DNA of 64,000 nt. It comes from Acetohalobium arabaticum DSM 5501. GTDB taxonomy: Bacteria; Bacillota; Halanaerobiia; Halobacteroidales; Acetohalobiaceae. Within the stretch, counting starts at the first letter, position 1. Each line of letters begins with the position of its first letter. Shown in pieces: positions 4,321-52,512 of the stretch. Location of the stretch: assembly GCF_000144695.1 (NCBI RefSeq), contig NC_014378.1, forward strand, positions 1,946,043-2,010,042, in the 5' to 3' direction. Below the pieces are notes generated by a model that worked only from the letters and a program-made list of their open reading frames with translations, searched no databases and was not told the DNA's origin. The translations under genes and the position numbers were made by a program.

Positions 4321-4350
4321 TAAAAAAGCCATGAGAAAATACCTCATGGC
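4321..4350 (-). terminator. Intrinsic terminator after the mttB-like gene
   Basis: A perfect 8-bp stem GCCATGAG/CTCATGGC with a 7-base loop, followed on the reverse strand by a run of six U. It lies 12 bp past the stop of the methyltransferase gene and insulates it from the efflux operon promoter. Confidence 0.85.
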
Positions 4351-4361
4351 AAATAATAAAT

Positions 4362-5777
4362 TTATAGATTCTCCATAAAATCAGTTAATTTTTTCTCTAT
4401 TACCGGATCTAAGTAAGGTTCTTCATAATCTTCAAGCATCTGCTTCCACTTCTCATTAGCTCGTTCAGCCGCTGTAGTTTTTTCGTCCACGGCACTATAA
4501 CCAGACCGATTATTAATAATCGGTTCTCTATGATCTTTCATGTGATTTAAAGTATGTGATTCTGATAGATAATGGCCTCCGTGTCCAACTTCATCAATCA
4601 AGTCTTCAGCCAATGTATCTTCATTAACCTCAATTTTTCGATGACAATTCTTGACCATACCTAATATTTCTTCATCAACAACAAACTTCTCATAAGACAT
4701 AGTCATATAATTTTCTAGTAATCCTGCACAGTGAATCTGGAAATTGATTCCATAATTCATTGAAGTCATAAAGTTCATCATTGATTCATACCCAGCTTGA
4801 ACATCAGTTACTAACGAATCAGTCAGTACTCCTCCATTCCGGGAAGGCATACCGTAATAACGGGCTAACTGAGCAGTAGCACCAGTATACTTTGTATACT
4901 CTGAACTACCTACAGTTAAAGCTGCTGTCTTCATATCAGTAATTGTCGAAGCAGAACCATAAACTACCGGTGCTCCTGGATTAACCATCTGAGCCAATAC
5001 AACACCAGCTAATACCTCTACATTTTGTAATACTAATCCACCAGCGATAGTTATTGGACCTGTAGAACCACCCATAACTAACGAAGCAATAATAGAAGCT
5101 TGATTATATCTAGCATGTTCCAAAATAGCACCTACCATCTTAGTATCATACTTCAAAGGAGTAGTTGTACTAACGATAGATATATTTATCGTTCTATCAT
5201 CAATAATTTCATCTTCACCGAATAATAAACTAGTCATCTTAAAGCAATCGCGGGCCTTTTTCTCGCCTAAAGCACTACTCATCAGTGATTTATCGGAATA
5301 TTTGGCACCTGCATGAATCATCTTAACATGTCGTTCTTCCTCAGGAATATCATTCATTTCTACTAATACTCCACCCAATGTATCAAGGTGGCCACTTGCT
5401 GCAGACAGCTTAGTAAAGTTAACATAATCTTCATAAGTAGATTCGCGTCTTCCATTTTCAATATCTGTTACATAAGGCGAACCAAATCCTGGAGCAAATA
5501 CAGAATTTTGCCCTCCTACTTCTACTGTATTTTCTGGATTTCTAGCATGTAAAGTAAAAGTTTCTGGAGCTTTTTCAACATAATCTTCAACGATTTTACG
5601 CGGTAAGTAAACTTTCTTGCCCTCAACTTTAGCTCCATTTTCAGCAAAAATTTCTCTTGCTTCCTCATGCAACACCTCCATACCAGTATTCTCAAGTAAA
5701 TTCATTGATGCTTCATGGATCTGTTCTACCTCTTCTTCGGATAAGACATCCTGTGGTTCAAATCTCCGTTCTAGCAT
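4362..5777 (-). CDS. MttB-family (trimethylamine/quaternary amine) corrinoid methyltransferase, non-pyrrolysine type
   Basis: A TIM-barrel methyltransferase of the MttB superfamily, 471 residues from the ATG at 5777, which has AGGAGG ten bases upstream. The frame extends 16 codons further upstream without a ribosome binding site. Family-like stretches include GSPYVTDIENGRR, the Gly-rich VMGGSTGPITIAGGLVLQN and GHGGHYLSESHT near the end. The frame is continuous with no in-frame amber codon, so this is a non-pyrrolysine member. Characterised relatives of that kind demethylate glycine betaine, proline betaine or carnitine onto a corrinoid protein. No corrinoid protein or MtqA/MtvA-type partner is in the window. 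The substrate is not determined. Confidence 0.88.
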   Translation of the reverse strand: MLERRFEPQDVLSEEEVEQIHEASMNLLENTGMEVLHEEAREIFAENGAKVEGKKVYLPRKIVEDYVEKAPETFTLHARNPENTVEVGGQNSVFAPGFGSPYVTDIENGRRESTYEDYVNFTKLSAASGHLDTLGGVLVEMNDIPEEERHVKMIHAGAKYSDKSLMSSALGEKKARDCFKMTSLLFGEDEIIDDRTINISIVSTTTPLKYDTKMVGAILEHARYNQASIIASLVMGGSTGPITIAGGLVLQNVEVLAGVVLAQMVNPGAPVVYGSASTITDMKTAALTVGSSEYTKYTGATAQLARYYGMPSRNGGVLTDSLVTDVQAGYESMMNFMTSMNYGINFQIHCAGLLENYMTMSYEKFVVDEEILGMVKNCHRKIEVNEDTLAEDLIDEVGHGGHYLSESHTLNHMKDHREPIINNRSGYSAVDEKTTAAERANEKWKQMLEDYEEPYLDPVIEKKLTDFMENL

Positions 5778-5840
5778 TTTTATTAACCTCCTTTTAAAAT
5801 CAAACTCATAATAATTTAAATGCATTTTTTATGCCAATGA

Positions 5841-6212
5841 TTAAGTAATAAAATTTTGAGACTGTCTTTCATTCATAGCCATTAAACAGAACGTTCCAAA
5901 GGTTATATTTGAAAATACAATAGAACATACTATAGTTGCCTGCACAGGACATCCCTGCCTCTTTGAACATTGATTACATAAAGCACTTTCACTAGTATCC
6001 CTTACAAACAGATCTGTTTGTTGAGGATTTAACATTAATTGATGGGTTATACAGCCCGGTCCTCCTCGATCATTTATTTCCTCTTGATACTTTCCAGTTC
6101 CTACTAAAACTTCTAGATCATCATCAACTATACAGATTTCATAATCTAAAACGGCCGCAAAAGCATCAGCTACCTGCTGTATAAAATCCTCTATTTCTTT
6201 CAATTTGCTCAT
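5841..6212 (-). CDS. Small stand-alone sensor-like domain protein (Cys-rich), function unknown
   Basis: A 123-residue protein with a good ribosome binding site (AAGGAGG). It has a PAS/GAF-like opening (EICIVDDDLEVLVGTGKYQ), then a Cys-rich segment with Cys in CITHQ, LCNQCSKRQGCPVQ and VCSIVF. It resembles the amino-terminal sensing region of some larger bacterial enhancer-binding regulators, but no ATPase or DNA-binding domain follows. The frame stops 63 bp before the methyltransferase start. It may be a free-standing redox or ligand sensor, or a remnant of a lost regulator. The conserved look and good ribosome site favour a real gene. Confidence 0.6.
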   Translation of the reverse strand: MSKLKEIEDFIQQVADAFAAVLDYEICIVDDDLEVLVGTGKYQEEINDRGGPGCITHQLMLNPQQTDLFVRDTSESALCNQCSKRQGCPVQATIVCSIVFSNITFGTFCLMAMNERQSQNFIT

Positions 6213-6322
6213 TGAACTCCTCCTTGATTATCAATTATGTAATCAATTTACATTATTAATGATATATACCACTGGCATATTTCTACAAATTAATCAAATT
6301 CCCTTCATTATTTCATTCTTAT

Positions 6323-8296
6323 CTATTTTAGTTTAGGTCTGCCCATAGCTATAACTTCAATTACACTCGTTATATATAAATCATCACTTTCACCAGATTG
6401 AGAAAAACTAATATAGACATCATCATGATCAACCATTACTTCTATATCAACAGCTCCAGACTTTTCTACTTGGCTTCTAGCATATTCTTTTCCAGCTTCT
6501 TTAGCAAATTCAACAGCTGACGTTAAATCGGAAAATTCTCTTCTTTCTAATGGAGCATAAGCTATATAACCGCTGCCTGTATCAGGCTTGATTTCTATTT
6601 CTACTCGCTCAATAACCTTACCTGTTACAGTTCCCACGGCGTTAGCTACTTCAGAATAATCTGGTATCTTTAAAGAAGCATTTAATTTATCAGCAATCTG
6701 TGGAAAGTAAGCTTCTACTGGTGCTCCAATGGCAACAATAGGAAGTTTCATTACCGCTGAAAAATCTATTAATTCTTCTAATTCTTGATTACTACCGAAC
6801 ATTTCCTGTAACAAAAACTCAGCCAATGAATCCTGCTCCCATTCAAAATTAATTCCTTTATCCTTAAGCAGCATTTCACTAATTACTAATGCTACTTTAT
6901 AATAGATTTCCTCCCGGACATCAGTAATAAATTCTCCTTGAGTAGTTCCATAACGACTAGTCATTATTTCTACTCCTAATTCTGCTGCCTGCTTATTCCA
7001 TCTATCCAGTTCACCTTCAGCATGTAGAATATCTGTAGGAGTTAAAGAAGCGCGATAGACTGAACCTATATTGACCAACCGTTGCCAGAATAATAAGTTT
7101 GTACTTTTATTTAATTTCTGGCCTAAATGGTACAATGTCTGAGGGCCTTCCTCTTTAATTATCTTTAAAATTTTTGTTTCTGTTCTACTGAGATCAACAT
7201 TTATAGGCTCTTTAATAAAGAAGAGAATATCTGTTGGCTGTGAATTAATAGGAAAGCATTCCCCCTCTTTGATTTCTTTTAGCTGATCTATTAAATATTC
7301 CTCTTCTTCTATAGCCCAAGCTAAAGGATAGACCCGCTGGGGACCGATCTGGAGTATACCATCCTTTGATATCTGGACATAACTATCGCCCCCGACGCCA
7401 ATAGTAACAATATCAACTGCCTGGACTCTAGTCAACCAGCCGCCAACCATAGCACCTTCTTCGTTCAAACTGGGATTTCCATTCTCCAAGAGAGCAACAT
7501 CAGTAGTAGTTCCACCCATATCTACTACTATACCATCTTCTACATCAGTCAGATATGTAGCTCCAATTAAGCTAGAAGCTGGTCCAGATAGGATAGTTTC
7601 AATTGGCTTCTCTTGAGCTACTTCTTCACTCACTAGACTGCCGTCACATTTAACTATCATTAACGGAGCATCGATTCCTTTATTATCCATACTCTCTTTT
7701 ACTGCTTCTATTAATTCAGCAATAATAGGAAGTAAGCGAGCATTTAAGACAGCAGTAGTTGTTCGTTCATGCATTCCCAACGAAGAAGTTAACTCATGAC
7801 CACAAACTATAGAATAATCAGTTATTTCTTGAATTATAGACTTAACCTTTTCTTCATGTTCTGGATTCCGAATACTAAAATAACTAGAAACAGCAAAAGC
7901 ATCTACCTGATCTTTCATAGACTGAACTGCCTCTTTAACTTCTTTTGAATCCAGATTTTCCCGTTCCTCACCTTTAATTGTATGTCCACCGCTAACTTGA
8001 ACTATATGTTCTGTTGGTAGTTCATTTTCAATTTCAAAACCAACCAAAATTAAACCTACTTCACAACCCTGCTCCTCCACAGTAGCATTGGTAGCTAGAG
8101 TTGTAGACAAAGATACCATTTTAATATTATCAAAATCTACTTCATCTAAGTTATTCATACACTTATTAATCCCGACTGCCAAATCTCGGCGGGTAGTAAG
8201 AGATTTTGCTGTATCATAAATTAGTCCTTCTTCTACATCCATAACTACACCATCAGTATAGGTTCCACCAGTATCAATCCCCAGTACAAAACCCAT
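6323..8296 (-). CDS. Hydantoinase/oxoprolinase-family ATPase-fold protein
   Basis: A 657-residue protein starting LGIDTGGTYTDGVV, the phosphate-1 motif of the hydantoinase A/oxoprolinase (ASKHA) fold, with the second phosphate motif VVDMGGTTTDVALLENG near residue 265. No HyuB partner is adjacent. The middle and end depart from ordinary hydantoinases: a winged-helix-like stretch (about 375-420) precedes the last part, so ring-opening of hydantoin or oxoproline is not assured. It sits directly upstream of the sensor-like protein and the MttB-type methyltransferase on the same strand, so a role in methylamine or betaine metabolism is plausible. The ribosome site AAAGGAGGAG is strong. Confidence 0.75.
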   Translation of the reverse strand: MGFVLGIDTGGTYTDGVVMDVEEGLIYDTAKSLTTRRDLAVGINKCMNNLDEVDFDNIKMVSLSTTLATNATVEEQGCEVGLILVGFEIENELPTEHIVQVSGGHTIKGEERENLDSKEVKEAVQSMKDQVDAFAVSSYFSIRNPEHEEKVKSIIQEITDYSIVCGHELTSSLGMHERTTTAVLNARLLPIIAELIEAVKESMDNKGIDAPLMIVKCDGSLVSEEVAQEKPIETILSGPASSLIGATYLTDVEDGIVVDMGGTTTDVALLENGNPSLNEEGAMVGGWLTRVQAVDIVTIGVGGDSYVQISKDGILQIGPQRVYPLAWAIEEEEYLIDQLKEIKEGECFPINSQPTDILFFIKEPINVDLSRTETKILKIIKEEGPQTLYHLGQKLNKSTNLLFWQRLVNIGSVYRASLTPTDILHAEGELDRWNKQAAELGVEIMTSRYGTTQGEFITDVREEIYYKVALVISEMLLKDKGINFEWEQDSLAEFLLQEMFGSNQELEELIDFSAVMKLPIVAIGAPVEAYFPQIADKLNASLKIPDYSEVANAVGTVTGKVIERVEIEIKPDTGSGYIAYAPLERREFSDLTSAVEFAKEAGKEYARSQVEKSGAVDIEVMVDHDDVYISFSQSGESDDLYITSVIEVIAMGRPKLK

Positions 8297-8331: not shown

Positions 8332-8364
8332 CAAAAAAAGCTCCAGGAATAATTCCTGGAGCTT
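8332..8364 (-). terminator. Intrinsic terminator after the DAP aminotransferase gene
   Basis: An 11-bp perfect stem AGCTCCAGGAA/TTCCTGGAGCT with a 3-base loop, followed by seven U on the reverse strand. It ends the dapF-aminotransferase unit 8 bp past the stop and leaves only about 35 bp for a promoter of the downstream hydantoinase-family gene. Confidence 0.9.
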
Positions 8365-10620: not shown

Positions 10621-12375
10621 TTACAAAACATTGGCTTCTCCTTTATATACTAAACCGCGGACGCTATCGACAGTTACCAGCTCCCCATCCTCTAACATTT
10701 CCATAGCATCATAAGCACCTACTACTGCCGGAATACCTAAGTTTAAACTAACGATAGCAGCATGAGAAGTAAGACCAGCCTCTTCAGTAATTACAGCTTC
10801 TGCTTTCTTCATTGCTGGTACAAAGTCTCTATCAGTACTATGAGTAACTAATACATCTCCTTCTTTCATCTTCTCGTTAGCTTCATCAGGATCATCTACA
10901 ATACAGACTCGTCCACTGAAAGCAGTCTTGCCGATTCCCGTCCCTCGTACAATAGCTTCTCCGACAATATGCACCCTAAGTAGATTAGTAGTACCGGATA
11001 CACCAACAGGAGTTCCAGCGGTCAAGACAATTAAATCGCCCATATTAATATATCCAGCCTCTAAAGCTCCCCGAACTGAAACTTCAAACATATCATCAGT
11101 AGAAGCAGTATCTTCTACTACAATAGGCTTAACTCCCCAGGATAAAGCTAACTGTTTACAGACTTTAGGATTTGGTGTAGCTGCAATTACTGGAGAATAA
11201 GGACGGTATTTAGAAACCATACGGGCAGTATGCCCAGAGCTGGTAGAAGTAATAATCGCCGAGGCTCCTAAATCATGAGCAGTTTCACAGGTTGAATAGC
11301 TAATTGAATCTGTAACTGTCCGCGGCGGCACCATATTCTTCTGTGCCATCTGTTTAGCATACTGTTCAGATTCTTCGATTTCTTGAGCAATCTTGGCCAT
11401 AGTTTCTACTGATCTTACAGGATACTCTCCCATTGCTGTCTCTCCTGATAACATTGTAGCATCAGTTCCATCTAAAATAGCATTAGCTACATCACTTGCT
11501 TCTGCCCTAGTCGGTCGGGGATTTCGAATCATAGAATCAAGCATCTGAGTAGCAGTAATTACCGGCTTACCTTCCCTATTACATTTATCAATCATCATCT
11601 TTTGGGCTGCTGGAACCTGTTCTGTAGGAATTTCAACTCCTAGATCACCCCGAGCAACCATAATTCCACTAGAAACTTCAATAATTTCATCAATATTTTC
11701 GACGCCTTCTTCACTTTCTATCTTAGATATAATCTTAATATCAGCATCATCTTTTTCTAAAATACGCTTAATCTCTAATACATCGGAAGCTTTACGAATA
11801 AACGAAGCAGCAATGAAATCTACATCCAGTTCAATTCCAAACTTAATATCAGCTGCATCTTTGTCAGTAATTGCTGGTAAATTAACAGAAACTCCAGGCA
11901 GATTTACTCCTTTACGTAATCCTAACTGCCCACCATTAAGCACTGTGCATTCTACCTCAGTATCAGAAATATTATCTATTTCCAATTCAATTAATCCATC
12001 ATCAATCAGAATAGTTCCGCCTACTTCAACATCTTTAGGAAGATCGTTATACGAAACAGATACTCTCTTATCATCACCTTCAATCTCTTCTGTTGTTAGT
12101 ACAAACTTCTCCCCTTCCTTTAGCGTAACCTCCTCATCATTCTTTAACATACCGGTTCTAACCTCTGGACCTTTAGTATCAAGCATAATAGCTACCGGCT
12201 TTCCCTTCTGAGCAGCTAAGTTTCTTACTCTTTGAATCCTTTCTTTATGCTCCTGGTGATTACCATGAGAAAAGTTCATCCGCGCTACATTCATTCCAGC
12301 ATCAATCAACTGTGATAAAGTCTCTTCATCATCACTTCCGGGACCAATAGTACATACAATCTTTGTCCTTCTCAT
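10621..12375 (-). CDS. pyk: Pyruvate kinase with carboxy-terminal PEP-utilizing (swivel) domain
   Basis: Converts PEP and ADP to pyruvate and ATP in glycolysis. The 584 residues exceed the roughly 475 of the core enzyme. The core carries RRTKIVCTIGP, the MLDTKGPEVRTG stretch, SKIES and the signature MVARGDLGVEIP. From about residue 480 there is an extra domain with LTSHAAIVSLNLGIPAVVGA, the PEP-synthase/enzyme I-type swivel domain found in Bacillus-type pyruvate kinases. Last gene of the accD-accA-pfkA-pyk cluster. Confidence 0.97.
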   Translation of the reverse strand: MRRTKIVCTIGPGSDDEETLSQLIDAGMNVARMNFSHGNHQEHKERIQRVRNLAAQKGKPVAIMLDTKGPEVRTGMLKNDEEVTLKEGEKFVLTTEEIEGDDKRVSVSYNDLPKDVEVGGTILIDDGLIELEIDNISDTEVECTVLNGGQLGLRKGVNLPGVSVNLPAITDKDAADIKFGIELDVDFIAASFIRKASDVLEIKRILEKDDADIKIISKIESEEGVENIDEIIEVSSGIMVARGDLGVEIPTEQVPAAQKMMIDKCNREGKPVITATQMLDSMIRNPRPTRAEASDVANAILDGTDATMLSGETAMGEYPVRSVETMAKIAQEIEESEQYAKQMAQKNMVPPRTVTDSISYSTCETAHDLGASAIITSTSSGHTARMVSKYRPYSPVIAATPNPKVCKQLALSWGVKPIVVEDTASTDDMFEVSVRGALEAGYINMGDLIVLTAGTPVGVSGTTNLLRVHIVGEAIVRGTGIGKTAFSGRVCIVDDPDEANEKMKEGDVLVTHSTDRDFVPAMKKAEAVITEEAGLTSHAAIVSLNLGIPAVVGAYDAMEMLEDGELVTVDSVRGLVYKGEANVL

Positions 12376-12455: not shown

Positions 12456-13454
12456 TTATAATGATAAGATATCTGCTAATTTATAGATTTCTTTATTTAA
12501 ATCCTTAGATCTGGTTAAAGACTCTTCGATTGGAAAGCTTTTAACCTCTTCATGAACAACGCCTACCATTTTATTAGTTTCTCCTTCTAATAAAAGATCA
12601 ACAGCTGCTGCACCTAAGCGGCTGCCTAAAATCCTATCCTGAGCTGTGGGAATCCCGCCGCGCTGCAGATGGCCCAAGACAGTAACTCTCGTCTCAAAAC
12701 CGGTTCTATTACTGATTTCTTCTGCTATAGCAAAGGCCTGGCTTTCATTATTATCAGTTGAAGAGGTAAAATCCTGTTCAATCCCTTCCGCTACTAAAAT
12801 AATACTATGCAGTTTACCGCGCTCATAACCATGGTTTAACTTTTCACAGACTTCTTCAAGGCTAAAATCTATCTCCGGTACTAGAATTGATTCTGCTCCA
12901 CCAGCTAATCCAGACATCAAGGTTAAGATTCCAGAATGCCGCCCCATAGTTTCCACTACAAAGGTCCGTTCATGAGAAGTAGCCGTATCTCTAATCTTAT
13001 TAATAGCATCTAAAATAGTATTCATTGCTGTATCATAACCAATAGAATAATCAGTACAGGCAATATCATTATCTATAGTGGCAGGAACTCCAACTACCTT
13101 AATATCCGATTCCTCACTGAGTAACTGAGCTCCCTTAAAAGAACCATCACCGCCGATCACTATCAATCCTTCAATTCCGCCGTATTTTAGCTGTTCAATA
13201 GCTTTTTTACGTCCTGCTTCAGTTCTGAATTCTTCACAGCGAGCAGAATGTAGCATAGTCCCGCCCCGATGGATAATATCAGCTACAGAACCGCGGTCCA
13301 TTACCATAAAATCACTTTCGATAACACCAGTATAACCGCGTTTAATGCCGATTATTTCTAATCCCTCATAGATAGCCTTTCTGGTTACTGCCCTAACAGC
13401 AGCATTCATACCCGGTGCATCTCCACCACTAGTCAAGACACCAATTTTATCCAT
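12456..13454 (-). CDS. pfkA: ATP-dependent 6-phosphofructokinase
   Basis: Phosphorylates fructose 6-phosphate in glycolysis. Signatures are GVLTSGGDAPGMNAAVRA at the start, GGDGSFKGA, PATIDNDIACTDYSIGYDTA with the catalytic Asp, METMGRHSG and the LGHLQRGGIPTAQDRILGSR family pattern. Length 332 is near the usual 320. Gly-Gly-Asp-Gly in the nucleotide site suggests ATP rather than pyrophosphate use. It lies between accA and pyk in the classical Firmicutes order. Confidence 0.97.
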   Translation of the reverse strand: MDKIGVLTSGGDAPGMNAAVRAVTRKAIYEGLEIIGIKRGYTGVIESDFMVMDRGSVADIIHRGGTMLHSARCEEFRTEAGRKKAIEQLKYGGIEGLIVIGGDGSFKGAQLLSEESDIKVVGVPATIDNDIACTDYSIGYDTAMNTILDAINKIRDTATSHERTFVVETMGRHSGILTLMSGLAGGAESILVPEIDFSLEEVCEKLNHGYERGKLHSIILVAEGIEQDFTSSTDNNESQAFAIAEEISNRTGFETRVTVLGHLQRGGIPTAQDRILGSRLGAAAVDLLLEGETNKMVGVVHEEVKSFPIEESLTRSKDLNKEIYKLADILSL

Positions 13455-13487
13455 TGATTAGCCTCCTGATAAATATTAAAGAAACTT

Positions 13488-14444
13488 TTATTCATTATAT
13501 TCCCCAATTCGTCTAAATTTATCATACCTTTGGTCTAACATCTCTTTTATTGATAACTGCTCCACCTCTTGTAGGCTATCTAAAACAGCTTCTTTTAACA
13601 ATTCACCACTTTTAGTAAAGTCTTTATGAGCACCGCCTATCGGTTCAGGAACTATGTCATCTATAATTTCCAATTCTAATAGGTCCTCAGCTGTCAACTT
13701 CAATGCCTTGGCCGCTGTTTTTGCTTCAGCAGCATCCTTCCAGAGAATAGCTGCACAGGCTTCAGGAGAACAGACAGAATAATATGTATACTCCATCATC
13801 ATTACTTTATCGCCAACTCCAATGCCTAAAGCTCCCCCGCTGCCGCCTTCACCAGTAATAACTACAATAATCGGTACTTCTAAGCTTCCCATCTCTCTCA
13901 TATTTCGGGCTATAGCTTCAGCCTGGCCGCGCTCTTCAGCGCCAATTCCAGGAAATGCTCCTGGAGTATTAACTAAAGACAGAATAGGACGATTAAACTT
14001 TTCAGCCTGTTTCATCAACCGTAGTGCTTTTCGATAGCCTTCCGGATGGGCCATACCGAAGTTACGGTTAAGATTATCCTTAGTATCCTTACCTTTCTGA
14101 TGGCCAATAATAGTTAAAGGTTGAGCTCCTATTTTACCTATCCCTCCTATTAAAGCCTGGTCATCTCCAAAATTCCTATCGCCGTGTAATTCAATAAAAT
14201 CATCACAGATTAAATCAATATAATCAAAAGTCGTAGGACGCTCAGCATGTCGGGCCAACTTTAATATCTGCCACGGTTCTAACTCATCATAAATTTCTTC
14301 CTTTAATTGAGCAGACCGATGCTTTAAAGTTTCAATTTCATCAGTTAAATCTATATCCTTTTCCTCCATAAACTGTTTTAATTCTTTAATCTTATCCTCT
14401 AATTCCAACAGTGGTTTTTCAAATTCTAAATTATTATTGGCCAT
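13488..14444 (-). CDS. accA: Acetyl-CoA carboxylase carboxyltransferase subunit alpha
   Basis: Transfers carboxyl from carboxybiotin to acetyl-CoA with AccD, the first step of fatty acid synthesis. Visible: amino-terminal helical region, then the crotonase-type core with [34 protein letters not shown] and [16 protein letters not shown]. The frame also allows a GTG start three codons upstream; the ATG (MANNN) overlaps the end of accD by 11 bp. The biotin carboxyl carrier and biotin carboxylase genes are not in the window. Confidence 0.96.
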
Positions 14445-51861: not shown

Positions 51862-52135
51862 CAAAAGACCTATCCTGCTGCCCGATTAGGACGCAACAAG
51901 ATAGGTCTTATTTCGCGGTACCACCTAATTAGATTATACTACAGCCAGTAGCATAATCCACTCAGTTTAATTAACGGCTTAACTGCCGGTAGAACTTACT
52001 AAAGTTTAGCCCTACAGCTCCAGAGCGAAATTTCAATCAAAGTTCTGTTGAAGATGCTTGCAGCCGAGGACATCTTCTCTCTTAGAAACTTTCCTTTAAT
52101 CTACTTAACTCTTTCGCAGCTTTTGATTATATTTA
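51862..52135 (-). promoter_or_regulatory. T-box riboswitch 2 (proximal), putative Phe specifier
   Basis: Reverse-strand RNA shows a Stem I region with GAUUGAAA, a putative specifier UUC (52029-52027) and then GCUCUGGAG. The T-box core AGGUGGUACCGCG follows, with UGGU (51923-51920) complementary to an ACCA tRNA end, then a terminator (51862-51909) whose outer 10-bp stem is AAGACCTATC/GATAGGTCTT. It opens 26 nt before the DAHP synthase start. A TATAAT at 52131-52126 might give it an additional weak promoter. Confidence 0.9.
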
Positions 52136-52218: not shown

Positions 52219-52512
52219 AAAAAAACTCTCCGTCTCTGTTTCAGAAACGAAGAGTTTGGTTTCGTGTTACCATTCTGATTGGTCAACTGCTATAGTTAAC
52301 CCGCTCTTATAGGATACGGAGTAAAACTACTCTTATATCCCTTCCCTAGATAACGGAGGATTTCCGGCTTAGCCTACTTATTCTTCAGCCAGCAACTCCA
52401 GAGGGAACTTCAATCTTAAACTTCAAGCTAAGCTCTCACCGTCCTTAGCTCGCTGTCGTTTCGCCTAAGATCTACTTTCCTCTTTCAACGCTATTGAAAC
52501 TTATATGATGTT
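52219..52512 (-). promoter_or_regulatory. T-box riboswitch 1 (distal), putative Phe specifier
   Basis: A complete leader: AGAGGAAAGUAG and GGUGAGAGCUUAGC in Stem I, GAUUGAAG followed by a putative UUC specifier (52407-52405) and CCUCUGGAG, and the T-box core with AAUGGUAACACGAA (UGGU at 52272-52269). It ends in a 15-bp-stem terminator followed by a U tract (52219-52257). Its core deviates from the consensus GGUGGNACCGCG, but the UGGU bulge is kept. Confidence 0.85.

Follow-up and report, generated by a model that had tools for sequence, protein, structure and literature searches.

Can a methyltransferase of the MttB superfamily with no corrinoid-protein gene beside it belong to an ordinary methyl-transfer pathway, and what is the role of the ATPase encoded in the same unit? 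The question is raised by a locus of Acetohalobium arabaticum DSM 5501, whose genome is one contig of 2,469,596 bases (NC_014378.1). The locus lies in a stretch of 64,000 nucleotides (positions 1,946,043–2,010,042), here termed the window; coordinates of features are those of the window unless assigned to the genome or to another locus. A. arabaticum Z-7288 is described (PMC3035264) as a halophilic homoacetogen using betaine and trimethylamine. As a reading of the sequence alone (the sequence-only reading) had described, three consecutive minus-strand open reading frames (ORFs) encode, in this order, an ASKHA ATPase, a lone sensor-like domain of 123 amino acids (aa) and an MttB-type methyltransferase:

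6323..8296, minus strand: ASKHA ATPase gene, 657 aa, HyuA-like with a winged-helix-like insert, in an operon-like unit with the 123-aa and MttB genes
7043..7339, minus strand: winged-helix-like insert of the ATPase (~residues 320–418), between the second ATPase motif region and the TPTD motif
5841..6212, minus strand: stand-alone sensor-like domain (SpoVT_C/GAF-like), 123 aa, seven cysteines
5949..5978, minus strand: C-x2-C-x5-C motif of the 123-aa sensor (residues 79–88), with invariant C79, C82 and C88
4362..5777, minus strand: predicted MttB-superfamily methyltransferase, glycine betaine (MtgB) type, 471 aa from the likely start (ORF 4362–5825, 487 aa)

Our answer centres on the ATPase. As judged from its sequence, it is a member of a separate clade of HyuA-like ASKHA proteins with a winged-helix-like insert of ~95 residues. 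From genomics we put at about 0.5 the probability that, as an ATP-driven accessory alongside the activator RamA, it serves to keep corrinoid methyltransferases active.

The ATPase matches Hydantoinase_A (E 2.4e-36) and Hydant_A_N (1.8e-32) in Pfam, with weak matches to the MutL/GlmL family, and shares these domains, the fold and the ATP motifs with HyuA, N-methylhydantoinase A and acetone carboxylase. The structural relatives of its AlphaFold2 model (predicted local distance difference test, pLDDT, 91.8) are headed by HyuA-type subunits: acetophenone carboxylase (Z 29.9 over 496 residues) and caprolactamase (Z 29.7). It differs from them in the insert, which replaces a stretch of 14–19 residues, in its separate branch, in its gene neighbours and in the absence of HyuB from the genome. 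In the model the insert forms helices at residues 371–383, 388–395 and 405–410 and a strand at 413–417, and it has a weak winged-helix match (MarR, residues 369–396, E 0.071, below the cut-off). Its length is 89–116 residues in 130/130 clade members of the tree set, compared with 14 or 19 in 26/26 ordinary HyuA relatives. The two groups split cleanly in the tree (support 0.975), which omitted five clade members of at least 780 residues and three of fewer than 551, and they separate by clade-profile score (≥286 bits, the lowest being 285.9, versus ≤227). The earlier description of a divergent hydantoinase-like ATPase with a winged-helix-like insert is thus borne out by Pfam, by the model and by insert length. 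The ATP motifs are conserved in 94–100% of the clade, as are the other motif residues tested, C165 excepted at 89%. Clade-specific residues are C165 (89%), P385 (96%) and H425 (97%), none of them found (0%) in the 26 ordinary relatives; C165 and H425 might be metal or corrinoid contacts.

Two other kinds of ATPase invite comparison. Like the window ATPase, RamA/RACE proteins are ASKHA-type ATPases tied to the same methyltransferase systems, but the window protein has neither a RACo_C_ter (PF14574) match at E 1 nor a ferredoxin-type Pfam match, and RamA-type proteins coexist with the clade. The reactivases (diol dehydratase reactivase DdrA; GlmL) share the general fold, and the weak MutL/GlmL-family matches are a further likeness. 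The match to 2d0o, a diol dehydratase reactivase, has a Z of 14.1, standing among many ASKHA rows of Z 12–16; as a Z of 14 is common to many unrelated ASKHA proteins, this value speaks for the superfamily only.

What makes ‘activator’, the label that the sequence-only reading had offered for the ATPase, a plausible and fair guess is that the clade is tied to corrinoid methyltransferases and to DUF1638. Among 398 genomes of the phylum the clade was found in 29, and MttB is present in 25 of these versus 31 of the 369 without the clade (Fisher 3e-20, a value that overstates independence, the compared genomes being related). Three candidates per genome were scored, with matches considered down to 186 bits, below the clade minimum of 285.9. 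An MttB, corrinoid or MtgA match lies near 25 of 41 clade members (all 37 from the survey genomes besides A. arabaticum, and four from Formimonas) versus 2 of 25 ordinary HyuA loci, a non-random control set with 11 from clade-holding genomes, nine from near the top of the list and five from Formimonas (p 1.3e-5). In a set from named genomes, the best 80 of at least 582 relatives, 46 of the 80 loci have such a match. The marker counts, those for DUF1638 below included, are lower bounds, since locus lengths vary and many contigs end early. Adjacent genes without the three markers (105 scanned) include URO-D (6), MtaB (4), DUF1638 (4), FilR1 (4) and RACo (2).

Clade members occur in glycine-betaine cassettes and in a pyl operon. 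In the same-family relatives L144, L145 and L146 (labels of this form denote loci) the cassette runs sensor regulator, corrinoid, MttB, (corrinoid,) MttB, ATPase, MtgA, BCCT, or the reverse, with small variations. Clustering of the three families in other genomes is indeed found: sensor domain, MttB and ATPase stand together in L144, L145, L146, L151, L049 and L052, the sensor there lying within a long ORF. In A. arabaticum itself, a paralogue of the window ATPase with 67% identity (genome position ~1140461) belongs to a corrinoid-MttB-corrinoid-MttB-ATPase-MtgA run, directly between MttB and MtgA; another, of 665 aa and 41% identity (389750), lies between pylB and pylC in the pyl operon. An ordinary relative (36%) is found at 1903955. 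The tree places the window ATPase inside a group of cassette ATPases (support 1.0), branching before L145, L144 and the ~1140461 paralogue (support 0.91), on a branch about as long as those of its relatives. Elsewhere in the clade, tandem or paired copies are seen in methanogens (L058, L064, L085, L087, L094, L101, L103, L120 and L124), and a 1116-residue member from Thermoplasmata (L122 7404–10754) has ~450 extra N-terminal residues with no Pfam match at E 0.001. The gene at L079 9341–9997, four bases before a clade member, weakly resembles the MetH B12 activation domain (E 0.00034, below the cut-off).

DUF1638 (PF07796), a separate protein family, is a neighbour or fusion partner of the ATPase clade. 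It is found in 27 of 121 clade loci versus none of the 25 controls, by a model made from four of the clade's own neighbours, whose matches are thus built in. Twelve of the 27 cases are separate genes within ~110 bases of the ATPase, 11 lie farther away and four are fused to the ATPase N-terminus (L076 669–3488, L097 7948–10740, L108 1684–4512 and L114 21–3107, confirmed with Pfam); the fusions come from Zipacnadia (two), Armatimonadetes and Brocadiaceae. At genome level DUF1638 is present in 24 of the 29 clade genomes versus 89 of the 369 others. The family has three strongly conserved cysteines (89–93% of 28 sequences). A published study links it genetically to B12 reactivation (PMC5764234): in Phaeobacter inhibens methionine rescues mutants in DUF1638 and in a RamA-like gene, and the two families are reported to track each other across genomes. 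The link is restated for growth on glycine betaine in a 2025 paper (PMC12478193).

One relative has been seen in a published proteome. Formimonas protein Ga0180325_114738, printed as ‘Unknown’, changes by −7.20 log2 units when cells grown on dichloromethane are compared with cells grown on glycine betaine (PMC9768040, Table 2), i.e. it is ~150-fold more abundant on glycine betaine. The clade member L135 9001–11007 (668 aa) has the same neighbours in the same order, and of nine published ORF lengths around that protein five agree exactly, 488 also agrees and three differ by choice of start codon; by length and gene order, L135 fits Ga0180325_114738. In the literature searched (openly licensed PMC papers only) no function has been assigned to the clade and no biochemical study of it was found; its members appear there under no names but ‘hydantoinase’ or ‘Unknown’. 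MttB and the network around it are already known.

The methyltransferase of the window is by homology an ordinary glycine-betaine-type (MtgB-like) enzyme. The protein, METHYLTRANSFERASE, gives a full-length match to PF06253 (MTTB; 502 bits versus a cut-off of 25, E 1.2e-150, residues 15–485). Its closest solved proteins are 2qne and the glycine betaine methyltransferase 9yce (E ~1e-145, residues 25–484 covered; 489 bits for 9yce). The features of a pyrrolysine-type trimethylamine methyltransferase are lacking: the ORF has no in-frame TAG and scores 371.7 bits with TIGR02369, for which the cut-off is 525. Like MtgB it belongs to a betaine-using host; it differs in having no adjoining corrinoid or MtgA gene, and its glycine betaine activity is putative. 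MttB occurs at nine places in the genome, four of which (the window copy, 1001910, 1132761 and 1303056) form a group with 60–72% mutual identity, the window copy being 60–64% identical to the other three. Those three sit in stretches with corrinoid and MtgA-type genes. In the L034 cluster, where the MtgA, corrinoid and BCCT gene names were confirmed, two corrinoid genes of 210 codons each (11090–11722 and 13233–13865) have one difference in the first 70 residues, which suggests a recent duplication or gene conversion. At 385133 stands the pyrrolysine MttB, with PYLIS_3 matched at its TAG; the genes after it are one for a corrinoid protein, then pylSn, pylSc, pylB, the ATPase paralogue of 665 aa, pylC and pylD (pyl operon, L030 9763–16736).

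The 123-aa protein was described as a Cys-rich, sensor-like domain without an output domain, and its seven cysteines and lack of a Sigma54_activat AAA domain agree with this. By homology it is the sensor domain that sigma-54 activators of MttB clusters carry, here in a stand-alone copy, and the word ‘sensor’ remains plausible and fair: it is 53% and 46% identical to residues 1–123 of two 594-aa regulators (genome positions 479842 and 993553), which have PAS, sigma-54 activator and Fis-type domains and are located in MttB clusters. C79, C82 and C88 are invariant among the 123-aa protein, these two regulators, L049 and L052. The only Pfam match is to SpoVT_C, at 20.3 bits versus a cut-off of 27.5; a relative in L031 passes at 29.9. 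The window protein thus resembles SpoVT C-terminal/GAF-like domains, from which it differs in its sub-threshold score, in standing alone and in its C-x2-C-x5-C motif. A PDB sequence search gave nothing better than E 1.1, and the fold model (pLDDT 45) is too poor to use. No other regulator part that would go with this sensor was found in the window. The other sensor copies in the loci examined are parts of long ORFs; the whole genomes of the relatives were not searched for stand-alone copies.

The partners of the enzyme are to be sought elsewhere in the genome. In a search of the whole window in six frames with hidden Markov models built here, no corrinoid protein, MtgA, RamA, DUF1638 or BCCT was matched. 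The statement that corrinoid protein and activator are both lacking therefore holds for the window and fails for the genome, which has ten B12-binding_2 places (open frames of 211–238 aa), two RACo_C_ter, i.e. RamA-type, places (358485 and 1386355), one of which may serve carbon monoxide dehydrogenase, and two DUF1638 places, and also encodes methyl-tetrahydrofolate methyltransferases. With ten corrinoid proteins and two RamA-type activators predicted in the genome, the partners of the trio can act in trans, and a missing neighbouring corrinoid gene does not make the unit corrinoid-free. The proposal of a ‘non-standard methyl-transfer unit’ is not upheld, the MttB being of ordinary MtgB type and the corrinoid proteins, RamA-type activators and methyl-tetrahydrofolate methyltransferases being encoded elsewhere.

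We propose that the trio acts as a satellite of the network by which the cell demethylates glycine betaine. A corrinoid protein encoded elsewhere would receive the methyl group that the MttB-type enzyme takes from glycine betaine or a comparable quaternary amine, and an MtgA-type enzyme would pass it on to tetrahydrofolate. In the likeliest reading, binding and hydrolysis of ATP by the ATPase would remodel the corrinoid protein or its methyltransferase complex, either opening the complex for the re-reduction of oxidised cobalt by RamA, perhaps together with DUF1638, or reloading the cofactor. The winged-helix-like insert, which on average is not positively charged, would serve as a docking module. 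The 123-residue protein, a free-standing version of the domain by which sigma-54 activators of MttB clusters are controlled, may report the same signal or tune those activators through mixed dimers.

Several observations weigh against such an upkeep role. RamA already supplies an activator in the clade genomes, and a second one needs a reason; RamA-type proteins are present in 28 of 30 clade genomes, A. arabaticum included; the two genomes without them are 84% and 99% complete, the latter also being without MttB. That the ATPase replaces RamA was an idea dropped because of this coexistence. None of the three markers is found in 16 of the 41 clade loci, nor in 34 of the 80 named-genome loci. 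The neighbours of the 16 (68 scanned) include recO and glycyl-tRNA synthetase genes, carbon monoxide dehydrogenase and EutH; DUF1638 and B12-binding genes also occur among them, three of each. One lineage (L162, L185, L190 and neighbours) has a clade member directly before recO, near glycyl-tRNA synthetase genes. MttB is absent from 4 of the 29 clade genomes, the window has no DUF1638 in any of six frames, and Price et al. offer no specific function for DUF1638 (PMC5764234). The surveyed genomes are related, by which the Fisher values overstate independence; this belongs on this side too.

Could the ATPase instead regulate transcription? The ASKHA part would sense ATP or a metabolite and the winged helix would bind DNA to control methyltransferase genes; ROK repressors combine both parts in another order. 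The resemblance of the insert to a winged helix suits this, as do the regulators near clade members in methanogens (FilR1_middle in 4 of the 105 adjacent genes scanned) and a published report in which the M. acetivorans ‘predicted hydantoinases’ MA4395 and MA4396, putative clade members, adjoin msrDE (PMC11619418). The mean net charge of the winged-helix core is however −1.0 (standard deviation 2.3, n = 97), although it is +4 in the window protein; clade members usually take a place inside the run of enzyme genes, with MttB on one side and MtgA on the other, and not one divergent from that run; and the DUF1638 fusions point to B12 upkeep. We therefore consider a regulator unlikely. A metabolic enzyme comparable to hydantoinase, oxoprolinase or acetone carboxylase, activating a substrate with ATP to feed the methyltransferases, would account for the whole-chain structural match to HyuA-type subunits (Z 29.9 and 29.7). 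HyuA-type enzymes work as A/B complexes. In the one-contig genome there are 0 Hydantoinase_B (PF02538) matches at E 0.1, the HyuA active-site stretch is replaced by the insert throughout the clade, and the clade follows MttB and DUF1638; such an enzyme is in our view very unlikely.

The trio might also be a decaying duplicate without a present role, given that the window lacks the parent cassette's corrinoid and MtgA genes, that the sensor is without its regulator and that A. arabaticum has three other MtgB-type copies. We find this quite unlikely: all three ORFs are intact, each with a good ribosome site, the ATP motifs are retained, and the ATPase appears to be old yet intact, since its branch lies outside the split of the sampled relatives (0.91) and is about as long as theirs. 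Scarcely credible, finally, is the strong form of the sequence-only reading, in which methyl transfer proceeds with no corrinoid protein at all. It has in its favour that the window encodes none; the MttB is MtgB-like and the genome has ten corrinoid proteins.

The boundaries of the unit are marked by two strong terminator-like hairpins that bracket the trio (8364–8338 and 4350–4328), of a kind for which 10 sites were found in 7.3 kb versus 3.7 expected:

8338..8364, minus strand: terminator-like hairpin in the gap that separates the dapL-like and ATPase genes, 42 bases ahead of the start codon of the latter
4328..4350, minus strand: terminator-like hairpin after MttB, before the TetR-family gene

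The 42 bases leave little room for a promoter before the ATPase start, and the first hairpin could be an attenuator. Upstream of the trio are an LL-diaminopimelate aminotransferase (dapL-like) gene and dapF; downstream are the TetR-family gene and then efflux genes. Translation of MttB probably starts at codon 17 (5777), because AGGAGG at 5792–5787 stands nine bases ahead of this ATG and three MttB paralogues start at the equivalent position. No promoter is claimed: the sigma-54 motif with up to two mismatches gave 22 matches in the window versus 19.9 expected, and the sigma-70 scan was likewise at chance level (24 versus 24.5). One match of the sigma-54 scan falls at 5821–5836, immediately ahead of MttB. 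Control by a cobalamin riboswitch was considered and rejected, as an Rfam scan at gathering thresholds of the window, L030, L031, L034 and L036 found none, only T-box leaders, tRNAs and PYLIS_3. Tandem T-box leaders lie on the minus strand of the window at 51884–52126 and 52240–52497.

Corrinoid methyltransferases are the point at which methylamines, methanol and betaine enter methanogenesis and acetogenesis, and cobalt that becomes oxidised in these systems needs rescue. RamA is the known rescuer; DUF1638 is linked genetically and has no assigned role. We tentatively suggest, at somewhat less than even odds, that the clade forms a second class of ATP-driven upkeep factors for these enzymes, distinct from the iron-sulfur protein RamA and working with DUF1638 in bacteria and methylotrophic methanogens, which has been overlooked through its annotation as ‘N-methylhydantoinase A’; the window would then show this class in a mobile form, paired with a methyltransferase of its own and a sensor domain that stands free. 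With an ATPase clade that is widespread, accompanies these systems, has DUF1638 fusions and shows strong induction in one published proteome, a missing part of corrinoid upkeep would become directly testable, and the common ‘hydantoinase’ misannotation could be corrected.

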